This document shows positions 3,759 through 32,760 of a stretch of DNA of 64,000 nucleotides, piece by piece. The position numbers were made by a program, and so were the translations under genes. Within the stretch, counting starts at the first letter, position 1. Each line of letters opens with the position of its first letter. Location of the stretch: the NCBI RefSeq assembly GCF_009733845.1, contig NZ_WNXZ01000002.1:1-64000 (forward strand), in the 5' to 3' direction. This DNA is from Pseudactinotalea terrae. Its GTDB lineage: Bacteria; Actinomycetota; Actinomycetes; Actinomycetales; Beutenbergiaceae. The notes below the pieces were generated by a model. The model saw only the letters and a program-made list of their open reading frames with translations, did not search any database and had not been told where the DNA came from.

Positions 3759-4052
3759 ATGACCATGACCAGGATGCGCACCGCCTCGGTGGCGCTCGCG
3801 CTCGCTGCCGGACTCGCGCTCGCGGGGTGTCAGACGGGCGGCAGCGACGGCGACATGGGCGATGAGGACATGACCGAGCCGACGACGTCGTGCGAGCCGA
3901 CCGAGGACATGACCGAGGAGATGACCTCGGAAGACATGACCGAGGAGATGACCGACGAGGAGATGACGTCGGAGGAGGGGATGACCGAGGACATGACGGA
4001 CGAGGAGATGACCTCGGAGGAGGAGATGACCTCCGACGACGAGGCCTGCTGA
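3759..4052 (+). CDS. Acidic Met-rich repeat lipoprotein
   Basis: A 97-aa secreted lipoprotein. The signal peptide ends in the lipobox LALAGC (Cys24). The mature part consists almost entirely of a degenerate 4-5-residue repeat EMTSE/DMTEE, so that Met, Thr, Glu and Asp dominate, and it carries two further Cys, one near residue 45 and one at the C-terminus. There is no recognisable fold. A purine-rich GGGAAAAGGGAAGAG precedes the ATG. It sits 68 bp after the molybdoenzyme in the same direction and may be co-transcribed. Regular Met spacing could suit soft-metal binding or a methionine oxidation buffer, but that is inference only. Confidence 0.8.
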   Translation: MTMTRMRTASVALALAAGLALAGCQTGGSDGDMGDEDMTEPTTSCEPTEDMTEEMTSEDMTEEMTDEEMTSEEGMTEDMTDEEMTSEEEMTSDDEAC

Positions 4053-4146: not shown

Positions 4147-4219
4147 GCGCCCGTAGCTTAATGGATAGAGCATCTGACTACGGATCAGAAGGTTGGGGGT
4201 TCGAGTCCCTCCGGGCGCG
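4147..4219 (+). tRNA. tRNA-Arg (anticodon ACG)
   Basis: A 73-nt cloverleaf. The 7-bp acceptor stem GCGCCCG/CGGGCGC, D arm GCTTAATGGATAGAGC, anticodon stem TCTGA/TCAGA with loop CTACGGA, and T arm GGGGGTTCGAGTCCCTC are all intact. The discriminator base is G and CCA is not encoded. Anticodon ACG reads CGN arginine codons after A34 editing. Confidence 0.97.
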
Positions 4220-29138: not shown

Positions 29139-30179
29139 GTGGCCCAGGAGGACTCTCCGACGTGGTGGCTGTTCCACGTCGACCTCGACCAGTTCCTCGC
29201 GGCGGTCGAGATCCGGCGGCGTCCGGAGCTGGCCGGCAAGGCCGTCGTGGTCGGCGGGGATGGCGATCCCACGCGGCCCCGGCAGGTGGTCGAGACCGCC
29301 ACCTACGAGGCTCGTGCCCTCGGCGTGCGCAGCGGGATGCCGCTGCGGGCAGCGTTGCGCAAGGCGCCCGACGCCGTGTACCTGCGCAGCGACCACCCCA
29401 CCTACGAGGCCGCCTCCATCGAGGTGATGGACACGCTGCGCACGTTCGGCCACGCGGTCGAGGTCTGGGGGTGGGACGAGGCGTTCCTCGGGGCCGACGT
29501 CGATGACCCGTTCGCGCTCGCCGACCAGATCCGCACCCGGGTGAGGGAGCGGACCGAGCTGAGCTGCGCCGTCGGGATCGGTGACACCAAGGAGCGCGCG
29601 AAGATGGCGACGTCCTTCGGCAAGCCCGGGGGAGTGTTCCGGCTCAGTCGGGACAACTGGTGGGAGCTGATGGGCGCGCGGCCGGCACAGGAGCTGTGGG
29701 GCATCGGCTCGCGCACGTCCGCCAAGCTCGCCGCGCACGGCATCGCCACGATCGCTGACCTGGGTCACGCCGACGAGCAGGCGCTCGCGGGCTGGTTCGG
29801 TCCCACGATCGGGCCGGCGCTGCGGAGGCTCGCGCGCGGCGGAGCGAGCCGCACGGTCTCCACCGAGGCGTGGGTGCGCCGATCGTTGAGCAAGCAGGTC
29901 ACCTACCCCACCGACCTCGCCACCCGCGAGGAGATCTCGACGGCGGTGCTCGCCCTGGTCGACGACGTCCACTCCCTCCTCCTCGAGGAGGGCAGGATCG
30001 CCACCCACGTGGCGGTCACGGTCCGCACCGCGACGTTCTTCACGCGGACGAAGACCGCGAAGCTCGCAGCGCCGACGGTCGACCGCGAGTCGCTGCGGGA
30101 ACGAGCCGAGATCGTGCTCGGCCGCTTCGAGCTCGACCGCCCGGTGCGGCTCCTCGGAGTCAGGTTCGATCTCGAGTAG
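29139..30179 (+). CDS. dinB: DinB2-like DNA polymerase IV (Y family) with Leu steric gate
   Basis: A 346-aa translesion polymerase. The catalytic carboxylates are Asp15 (HVDLDQFLAAVE) and Asp113/Glu114 (WGWDEAFL). Palm, thumb (ELWGIGSRTSAKLAAHGI) and little-finger regions are present. The residue at the steric-gate position, normally Phe or Tyr after the first F of the DxDxFF motif, is Leu20. The protein ends directly after LLGVRFDLE and has no beta-clamp motif. Both traits match mycobacterial DinB2, which is known to insert ribonucleotides readily. GTG start supported by TAGCGT upstream. Confidence 0.92.
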   Translation: MAQEDSPTWWLFHVDLDQFLAAVEIRRRPELAGKAVVVGGDGDPTRPRQVVETATYEARALGVRSGMPLRAALRKAPDAVYLRSDHPTYEAASIEVMDTLRTFGHAVEVWGWDEAFLGADVDDPFALADQIRTRVRERTELSCAVGIGDTKERAKMATSFGKPGGVFRLSRDNWWELMGARPAQELWGIGSRTSAKLAAHGIATIADLGHADEQALAGWFGPTIGPALRRLARGGASRTVSTEAWVRRSLSKQVTYPTDLATREEISTAVLALVDDVHSLLLEEGRIATHVAVTVRTATFFTRTKTAKLAAPTVDRESLRERAEIVLGRFELDRPVRLLGVRFDLE

Positions 30180-30270
30180 CGCTCCCGCCCGGACCCACGC
30201 GTCTCGGTGCCGACGCGCTCGCCCAGACCCGCGCAGGGGTGGAGTCATCGGTGGCTGGGGAGGGCGCCGC

Positions 30271-30276
30271 TAGGGT
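30271..30276 (+). promoter_or_regulatory. -10 box TAGGGT of a leaderless transcript
   Basis: TAGGGT ends 6 nt before the GTG at 30283 of the ROK gene. Confidence 0.45.
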
Positions 30277-30282
30277 TTCGGT

Positions 30283-31449
30283 GTGGTGGAGCGAGCCGGA
30301 GCGGCTGACGGGGTCCGGCAGCGGAACCTGTCCACGGTGCTGCGGCTGATCCATCGGGAGGGGCCGCAGTCGCGCTCGCAGCTGACGGCGACCACGGGGC
30401 TGAACCGTTCGACCGTCGCGGCGCTCGCCGGTGAGCTGGTCGAGCTCGGGCTCGCGCAGGAGCGGGCGCCGGCCGGGACGAACCGCGTCGGCCGGCCCTC
30501 GCCGGTGGTGTCCGCAGATCCCGGCGTGACCGCGATCGCCGTCAACCCCGAGGTCGACGCCGTGACTATCGCCGCCGTCGGGTTCGGCGGCCGCGTGGTG
30601 GTGCGCGAACGTGTCGAGCACGAGTCCCTCGTGACCCCCGAGCAGACGGCGGAGCTGACCAGGTCGGTCATCTCCCGCTGGCAGGAGCGCGAGCTCGACG
30701 GCGCCCGGATCGTGGGCGTGGGCCTCGCCGTGCCGGGGTTGGTGCGGGCCTCGGACGGCCTGGTGCGGCTCGCGCCGCACCTCGAGTGGCGGGACGCCCC
30801 GGTGCGGGACCTGGTCGCCGAGACCACAGGGCTGCCGACGGCGGTGGGCAACGACGCCACGCTCGGCGCCGGTGCTGAGCATCTTTTCGGAGCCGGGCGC
30901 GGCGTGGATGACCTGGTGTACCTCAACGGCGGCGCGAGCGGTATCGGTGGCGGCCTCGTGGTGGCCGGGCGAGCTGTCGCCGGCGCCTCCGGGTATGCCG
31001 GGGAGTTCGGGCAGAACCGGCCGGGGATCATGGAGGCCGCCGACCGCCGCGCCGATGACGGGGTGCTCGAGGACGAGGTCAGCCGGGCCAGGCTGCTCGA
31101 CGTGGTTGGCCTGCACAGCGCCGACGAGCCCACGCTCGCGGCGGCCATCGCCGGCTCTGCGGATCCCGCGGTGGCCGCCGAGGTCGAGCGGCAGCGCCGC
31201 ATCCTCGCGACCGCGCTGTCGAACGCTGTCAACGTGCTCAACCCCTCGGTCGCGATCCTCGGCGGCTTCCTGGCGACCCTCGCCGAACGGGACATGGAGG
31301 GCCTGCTGAGCGCCGTCGTCGAGCAGGTGATCCCAGGCGCCGCCGACGAGCTCGAGTTGCGCGTCGCCGCCCTGGGCGAGGACCGGCTGATGATCGGCGC
31401 CGCCGAAGCCGCTTTCGCCCGGCTCCTCGCCGCCCCGCTCGGTGCCTGA
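30283..31449 (+). CDS. ROK-family transcriptional regulator
   Basis: A 388-aa regulator. The N-terminal MarR-like winged helix (about residues 8-65, LTATTGLNRSTVAALAGELVELGL) is fused to a ROK sugar-kinase-like domain with VGNDATLGAGAEHLFGAG and GASGIGGGLVVAG. The usual zinc motif CxCGxxGCxE after AGEFGQNRP is absent and replaced by acidic text. It is probably a repressor responding to a sugar. The rhamnogalacturonan operon starts 640 bp downstream in the same direction and is the most likely target (inference). Confidence 0.9.
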   Translation: MVERAGAADGVRQRNLSTVLRLIHREGPQSRSQLTATTGLNRSTVAALAGELVELGLAQERAPAGTNRVGRPSPVVSADPGVTAIAVNPEVDAVTIAAVGFGGRVVVRERVEHESLVTPEQTAELTRSVISRWQERELDGARIVGVGLAVPGLVRASDGLVRLAPHLEWRDAPVRDLVAETTGLPTAVGNDATLGAGAEHLFGAGRGVDDLVYLNGGASGIGGGLVVAGRAVAGASGYAGEFGQNRPGIMEAADRRADDGVLEDEVSRARLLDVVGLHSADEPTLAAAIAGSADPAVAAEVERQRRILATALSNAVNVLNPSVAILGGFLATLAERDMEGLLSAVVEQVIPGAADELELRVAALGEDRLMIGAAEAAFARLLAAPLGA

Positions 31450-31545
31450 GCGGCAGCGGCTCTTCCAGTCGGGTACCGGAGTGGCGCTGCGTGACCGCTT
31501 CGATCGGCCGTCGACCGGCTCGGCATGTCGCCGCGCACCCGCCGC

Positions 31546-31750
31546 GTTGCGGAACTGACCCGAACGCCACGGGCGCAACGCGCATGGCAGAGTGCTGTTG
31601 CGGAACTGACCCGAACGCCACGGGCGCAACGCGCATGGCGGAGTGCTGTTGCGGAACTGACCCGAACGCCACGGGCGCAACGCGAACCCGGGACTGCAGT
31701 TGCGGAACTGACTTCCACGCCACCAGGCGCAACGCGCACCCCGGAGTGCA
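31546..31750 (+). repeat. Four tandem 51-52-bp direct repeats
   Basis: Units begin at 31546, 31597, 31648 and 31699, each with GTTGCGGAACTGAC; the last is 52 bp and more diverged. Units 1 and 2 are almost identical. Each unit contains an inner inverted repeat GTTGCG...CGCAAC (22 bp between the arms), so every copy can fold a hairpin. Confidence 0.9.
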
Positions 31751-31972
31751 GTTGCCGCCCGCCGCCTATCCCGGCCCGAGCTCCGCTGCTGAACGCGCGC
31801 CTTCTTCCGTTCACGGCTGCCGATCGCTGGGTTGCTGCTGCTCTCAGGCTGACAGCGGCACATAGCGCGCGTTCGACGCCGGAATCGGGGCCGGGTGCGC
31901 GATCGGCGGCGACTCCGGGGCGGTGTGCGCCTCGGCGGCGGCGTCCGGCTGGGGAGAGGTGCGGGTCTGGGC

Positions 31973-32022
31973 TTGACGACTCGCAGGACTCGCCTGTACC
32001 GTCATGAATCCATTCAATGAAT
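31973..32022 (+). promoter_or_regulatory. Promoter and probable operator of the rhamnogalacturonan operon
   Basis: TTGACG (31973-31978) and TACCGT (31997-32002) are spaced by 18 bp. ATTCAATGAAT (32012-32022), an 11-bp palindrome, lies across the expected start of transcription, where a repressor such as the ROK protein could bind. The first gene starts 64 bp further on behind GAGGGGAG. Confidence 0.6.
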
Positions 32023-32085
32023 CGTTGCCGCTGAGGCGACGAGCGCACGACCTGACGTCGACGGAGATCTCGAGGGGAGCGCCCG

Positions 32086-32760
32086 GTGAGCACGGTCACC
32101 ACGCCCAGGAAAGCGTTTCCCGCATCCTCCGGGCTGCCCGGCGGGCGGCTCTACGACGCGGCCGAGCTCCTCGTTTGGGTCGCCGGGCTCAACTTGCTGG
32201 TGATCGCGTTCTCCCTGCTCGGGGGGATCGTGCTGGGGCTGGCGCCGGCGCTCGTCGCGGCAGCCAGCGTGTCGCGAGCACGAGTGCGTGGCGACGCCCA
32301 GCCGCTGTTCCGGACCTTCGCTCGGGTGTGGCGCCGAGAGCTCCTGCGGGCGAACGCGGTGCTGTGGCCGTTCGCCGCCGTCGCGCTCGTGCTGGGCGCC
32401 AACCTGTACGCGTTCGCCCCCGGTGGGGGTGTGCTCGTGGTGGCGCTGTGGATCGCGCTCGGCGTCGTCGGGATGGCCGCGGTCTTCGCCTTCACGATGT
32501 ACAGCCACTACGACATCCCGCTGCGCACGTATCCCACGACCGCCCTGCGGTACCTCCTCCACGACCTGCCGGCCACCGCGCTCGTCGCCGTGGTCACGGT
32601 GATGGCGGTGCTGCTGGTCCGGTTCCTCCCCGGCCTGCTGCCGGTGCTGGCCATCGGCGCCTGGCTTCACGCGGTCACCGCCATCTGCACCTCCTGCCAC
32701 GCGCGAAACGACCGCCTGGTCGCGGCGCTCTCCGACTCGACCCCGACCCCTTCTGAGTGA
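32086..32760 (+). CDS. DUF624/YesL-family membrane protein
   Basis: A 224-aa membrane protein with about five helices, including LNLLVIAFSLLGGIVLGLAPALVAAASVSR near the N-terminus. It matches the DUF624 (YesL) family, whose genes sit in oligosaccharide-uptake operons with LplB/LplC permeases. A regulatory or accessory role in transport is assumed for the family; the mechanism is unknown. GTG start with a good ribosome site. It is first of the operon, 27 bp before the binding protein. Confidence 0.85.
   Translation: MSTVTTPRKAFPASSGLPGGRLYDAAELLVWVAGLNLLVIAFSLLGGIVLGLAPALVAAASVSRARVRGDAQPLFRTFARVWRRELLRANAVLWPFAAVALVLGANLYAFAPGGGVLVVALWIALGVVGMAAVFAFTMYSHYDIPLRTYPTTALRYLLHDLPATALVAVVTVMAVLLVRFLPGLLPVLAIGAWLHAVTAICTSCHARNDRLVAALSDSTPTPSE

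Follow-up and report, generated by a model that had tools for sequence, protein, structure and literature searches.

Three described systems come close to the repeats analysed in this study. MIRU-VNTR are minisatellite loci, mostly intergenic, of which an actinobacterial genome contains several and in which the number of copies changes (PMC3635867). REP sequences are short, dispersed extragenic palindromes, and REPINs are formed by conserved REP ends around a spacer (PMC3116915). The TAACTGA sets of marine Beggiatoaceae (PMC4679880) are intergenic direct repeats of 7 bp, present at many places, located mostly just upstream of start codons and sporadic in their taxonomic spread.

The window, that is, the whole stretch of 64,000 nucleotides of Pseudactinotalea terrae that was analysed, contains a tandem array of 51-bp units at 31546–31755, between a gene for a ROK-family regulator and a sugar operon. 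The first-pass annotation had offered three options for these units: regulator sites, structured RNA or a minisatellite. Based on the results described below, the array is probably (at roughly 0.7) part of a family of MIRU/REP-like minisatellites, confined to the genus and dispersed between genes, and not a switch of the sugar operon. In its working, this family is closest to MIRU-VNTR, since tandem units of tens of bp are located between genes at many places, with a copy number that varies, here as seen between species only. It differs from MIRU in sequence (the two were set apart without direct comparison), in keeping only the core and the end of the unit between places, and in the turnover of its array sites between species. 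Like REP and REPIN, the units are extragenic and palindromic, but unlike REPINs they are arranged head to tail, not as inverted doublets, and are present in fewer copies. The arrays of this family are intergenic and occur at many places of one genome, as do the TAACTGA sets, from which they are distinguished by the 51-bp period, by the small number of divergent (promoter-only) spacers and by their presence in a single genus in the searches made.

The layout of the array agreed in full with the first-pass annotation, which had described four 51-bp repeats with steps of 51, 51, 51 and 52, arms of GTTGCG and CGCAAC in each unit, and a period divisible by three. Both the sequence itself and TRF (period 51, 4.1 copies, 89% matches, score 292, span 31546–31755) identified four units placed head to tail on the + strand, with starts at 31546, 31597, 31648 and 31699, the last step leading to a truncated fifth unit of GTTGC alone (31751–31755) at the end of the TRF span. 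All four units start with GTTGCG and end with CGCAAC. The palindromic-ended hairpin part (GTTGCGGAACTGAC...GCGCAAC) is 34 bp long and identical in units 1 (31546–31579), 2 (31597–31630) and 3 (31648–31681), while that of unit 4 (31699–31733) is 35 bp long with a diverged interior; the linkers at 31580–31596, 31631–31647 and 31682–31698 are each 17 bp. As expected from a period divisible by three, open frames run through the array on both strands, at 31491–31865 and 31525–32007 on the + strand and at 31238–31732, 30160–31863 and 30270–32102 on the − strand. Farther along this spacer, past the end of the array, a second repeat (30 bp, 2.1 copies) is located at 31886–31948. Elsewhere in the window, a repeat of GACCGAGGAGATGAC-like words with a period of 45/27/15 was observed at 3897–4031, adjoining a tRNA gene (4147–4219).

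When the segment 31500–31800 was compared by BLAST with its own genome, only the array itself and one short match of 85% were detected, the latter being one of two units spaced at 51 bp, and a search of 24 genomes of the family with the whole array as DNA found it in its own genome only (1/24). Because variation in the interior of the unit defeats plain BLAST, further searches used patterns and a sequence model. The pattern GTTGCGGANNTGAC-N12-20-GCAAC gave 24 exact matches in the genome and its reversed control gave 0, indicating that the motif is not due to chance. The family motif consists of GTTGCGGAAGTGAC, 15–16 variable bases and GCAAC, which pairs with the start of the unit, followed by a variable linker of 17 bp. 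In this genome, we identified 59 units at approximately 24 intergenic places, with 1 to 6 units at each. At E≤1, the sequence model R1, built from 43 units, had 72 matches in this genome; for P. suaedae and a third species of the genus, the corresponding numbers were 15 and 3. These counts include weak matches and some palindromic units scored on both strands. A scan with a weight matrix, trained on the units that it then finds, covered the window, twenty stretches of 16–20 kb from this genome and five from relatives, and detected 29 places with a total of 72 units; of these, 24 places (59 units) belong to this genome and 5 (13 units) to P. suaedae, and the single third-species stretch yielded 0 units. 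Both the unit scans and the gene calls relied on custom scripts. None of the scanned units was located within a called gene, even though coding sequence makes up 90% of the stretches taken from this genome. Four of the 24 places contain a single unit, two of these being weak (in L095). The first-pass annotation had proposed searching the genome for the unit, and had reasoned that identical arrays at unrelated loci would point to a mobile minisatellite without local function. The search revealed arrays or single units of the same family at about 23 places besides the ROK locus, and arrays of the same period at many unrelated loci; in substance this is the anticipated pattern and speaks for the minisatellite option, the arrays being related to one another and not identical.

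The spacing of the units is close to constant. Among 43 next-neighbour distances, 40 were 51 bp (29 cases) or 52 bp (11 cases), the others being 53, 61 and 104 bp (one each), the last of which corresponds to one skipped unit. Unit length was 34 bp (52 units) or 35 bp (20 units), and the linker was 17 bp in 35 of 39 cases. Between loci, identity was 0.83 for the 14-bp core, a value partly due to ascertainment in that units were found by means of this core, and 0.94 for the final GCAAC, compared with 0.43 for the interior, 0.45 for the linker and 0.28–0.35 for a null of shuffled letters. Within arrays, identity was 0.79–0.97 across all parts of the unit. Likeness within arrays together with divergence between places indicates that each place was homogenised separately. 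The retention of core, end and spacing, with the other parts free to change, provides the best indication that the unit is read by something, although ascertainment accounts for part of the contrast; had the units simply decayed from one 51-bp ancestor, all of their parts should have diverged equally. The fixed core and spacing would thus imply recognition by some protein. Orientation was head to tail at 19 of the 20 multi-unit places of this genome, the exception being a −+ pair (C9:327629) that is also present at the orthologous place in P. suaedae.

Two further classes of repeat were considered and rejected. CRISPR arrays did not fit, the linkers not being unrelated (81% identical within arrays and 45% between them). 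The core boxes of integron attC sites are RYYYAAC and GTTRRRY; the unit ends GCAAC and GTTGCGG break these boxes, with the consensus judged by eye. Other repeats were observed in the spacers and stretches surveyed. A spacer with a single unit (L028, 1300–1480; G000:C9, about 232.3 kb) contains inverted and direct copies of GAAAGTGCGTTGAAATC, apparently another intergenic repeat. Tandem repeats of 31 and 84 bp were detected at L080 10024–10093, L083 10139–10425 and L096 14475–14546, with GCGTCCAC/GTGGACGCTGAG-like words present in the L080 and L083 repeats. This genome may contain a second dispersed family here.

The distribution of the family outside this genome was narrow. In 396 sampled genomes of the order, the exact relaxed motif was found only in this genome and in Pseudactinotalea suaedae. 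In the third species, a diverged array (C46:183703/183755, 52 bp apart) keeps GAAGTGACC and CAACGGCACG and has lost the GTTGC arm, on which the weight matrix relies and without which the array was left unscored. The exact core pattern was matched in a genome collection (84,980 species by its description) only in P. suaedae and in one Opitutaceae MAG, gave 0 matches in IMG/VR viral contigs, and the segment 31500–31800 had no match in plasmid and phage collections; these genome, viral, plasmid and phage collections may omit records of the genome of the window itself. The match in the Opitutaceae MAG was taken as chance, and no second unit was present in the 500 bases read. Searched as text, the 14-letter core had no match in the open-licence literature. 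Judged from these searches, the family is new and genus-restricted within the sample searched, and is of a known kind, namely, dispersed intergenic minisatellites.

To follow the arrays between species, orthologous sites of P. suaedae were compared for 15 of the 24 places; L079, L092 and L093, which were without two adjacent flanks, and L094, L095 (two places), L096, L097 and L098 were left out. Units were present in P. suaedae at 4 of these 15 places and absent from 11, and all three shared multi-unit arrays differed in copy number (3 versus 2, 2 versus 4 and 3 versus 2, this genome versus P. suaedae). In the third species, none of six compared sites contained units. The breakpoints of empty sites were ragged, the extra DNA mostly exceeded the array in length, and the empty-site comparisons did not establish a target duplication. 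The place of the six-unit array C9:319884 is empty in P. suaedae, and among its units are some that match, with identity over 34 bp, one unit of a three-unit array 8.8 kb away, the place of which is common to P. suaedae. This similarity suggests that the C9:319884 array is probably the product of recent spread.

Next to the arrays, genes of unrelated function were found. The ten flanking proteins tested included leucyl-tRNA synthetase, acetyl xylan esterase, an aminotransferase, an SIS/glutamine amidotransferase protein, a cold-shock protein, ABC permeases, a zincin-like peptidase, an epimerase and a sulfatase. Of the 24 array places, 11 are in tandem, 10 in convergent and 3 in divergent spacers; the corresponding numbers for the 152 array-free spacers (60 bp or longer) are 80, 21 and 51. 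Arrays were thus enriched in convergent spacers (10/24 versus 21/152, Fisher p 0.0025), and divergent spacers tended to be avoided (p 0.054). Convergent and divergent spacers make up 26% and 33% of array-free spacer bases, and by spacer length the convergent excess is weaker. Of the 24 places, 21 are located downstream of one gene or more. Such a bias would be seen if the arrays are tolerated at a distance from promoters, and also if they have a role at 3′ ends. The GC skew of the fetched stretches was small, and most arrays were located on the + strand of the contigs.

The alternative that survives best is that the units form rows of sites, genome-wide, for a host DNA-binding protein such as a nucleoid, segregation or global regulatory protein. 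A period of 51–52 bp corresponds to about five helical turns, which would bring every site onto the same face of the helix; the core and spacing are conserved between loci where the interior and linker are not, and the arrays are found solely between genes. This reading is set back by the high turnover, with most compared places empty in P. suaedae, by the small number of places in relatives and by the lack of a common function among the flanking genes tested, and we consider it unlikely.

A role of the units as RNA, either as a small RNA or as tandem hairpins that, at 3′ ends, terminate transcription or protect messages, would agree with their position downstream of genes and in convergent spacers. 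The first-pass annotation had stated that each unit is able to form a hairpin, and this held for single units, 17 of 18 of which folded better than the mean of their own shuffles (mean z about −2) because of their palindromic ends; the whole array at the ROK locus folded like its shuffles (z −0.51). No covariation was detected between the hairpin arms (76.5% of cells paired versus 77.3% in shuffles), the covariation score was reached by 285 of 500 shuffles, and RNAalifold gave no consensus pair. Where a single arm had changed, as with GTTGA in P. suaedae C1 and TCAAC at C7, the opposite arm showed no compensating change. The array had no Rfam family match, no intrinsic terminator (a G+C-rich stem followed by a T run) was detected in 31400–32150, a scan that concerned the ROK locus only, and among tandem spacers, the array shared the strand of its neighbouring genes only in part of the cases. 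The symmetry of the unit is explained equally well by a DNA site. The RNA role is therefore very improbable, and the structured-RNA option of the first-pass annotation was not borne out.

At the ROK locus itself, the array was confirmed to lie between a gene for a ROK-family regulator of 388 aa with a MarR-like winged helix (30283–31449; PF00480, PF12802) and a DUF624 gene (32086–32760; PF04854), which is the first gene of an operon that also encodes a PcRGLX-type rhamnogalacturonan enzyme and two ABC permeases. The spacer between the ROK and DUF624 genes is 636 bp in this genome versus 155 bp in the P. suaedae orthologue, which contains no unit although the ROK gene and the operon are kept. 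Matches to P. suaedae stop at 31449 and restart at 31930, so that the array is contained in a stretch without counterpart (31450–31929). In the third species, the orthologous spacer contains an unrelated tandem repeat of about 15 bp, of CCCGGGTG- and CCCGGGTGGCCGCG-type, in the first 140 bases of the reverse complement of L047, at the end of contig G001:C4; the contig stops within this repeat, about 180 bp before the dyad described below. Unrelated repeats therefore gather in this spacer across species.

In contrast to the array, a promoter-like stretch on the + strand at about 31973–32016 (to 32022), outside the array, is kept in all three species. The conserved order is TTGACG (at 31973), 17–18 bases, TACCGT or TATGGT, and TCATGAATCCATTCAA with the dyad TGAATCCATTCA, which is located at 32005–32016, about 250 bp beyond the end of the array. 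This conserved DNA is 220–270 bp downstream of the array and nearer to the operon. A scan of 31400–32150 with a strict sigma-70 consensus did not report the stretch at 31973 as a promoter. Judging from its conservation, the stretch with its dyad may be a likelier control site of the operon than the array, and it is a candidate ROK operator. A role of the units as ROK-repressor operators of the rhamnogalacturonan operon, as suggested by the place of the array between the two and by the palindromic ends, is hardly credible given the array-free spacer of P. suaedae beside a conserved ROK gene and operon, the different repeat in the third species, the further family places with unrelated neighbours and the conserved dyad nearer to the operon; the regulator-site option was thus not supported at this locus. 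As part of the minisatellite reading, the array at the ROK locus is probably a lineage-specific gain, or was lost in the relatives, and has no conserved role in the operon.

For a minisatellite family of this kind, a unit or a short array would occasionally be copied into new spacers, after which slippage or unequal recombination could expand and homogenise it locally. Recognition by a mobilising enzyme or a host DNA-binding protein would keep the core, the spacing and the GCAAC end fixed; the same conservation of core and spacing could mean a host function instead. Y1_Tnp (PF01797), the sole mobilising family tested, was found in none of the three genomes of the genus, with 5 of 14 genomes positive in the control. 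REPIN/RAYT was rejected on the head-to-tail order and the absence of the Y1 transposase, and membership of the REP/REPIN class is not claimed because of this absence from all three genomes. We propose, as a tentative and rather doubtful extension, that the family might be the target of an undescribed Pseudactinotalea recombinase, transposase or DNA-bridging protein that reads the 14-bp core and the GCAAC end at fixed distances and requires its sites every five helical turns. If so, the arrays would be both substrate and product of this protein, and would represent a period-locked mobile repeat that lacks a Y1 transposase.

The minisatellite reading turns what appeared to be a promoter-side regulatory array into a case of repeat spread within one bacterial genus. 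It also carries a caution, in that tandem hairpins beside an operon should not be taken for operators until orthologues have been checked. The empty and filled sites and the differences in copy number are directly comparable between species, and the contrast of fixed core and spacing with free interior and linker provides a concrete probe for a candidate reading protein.
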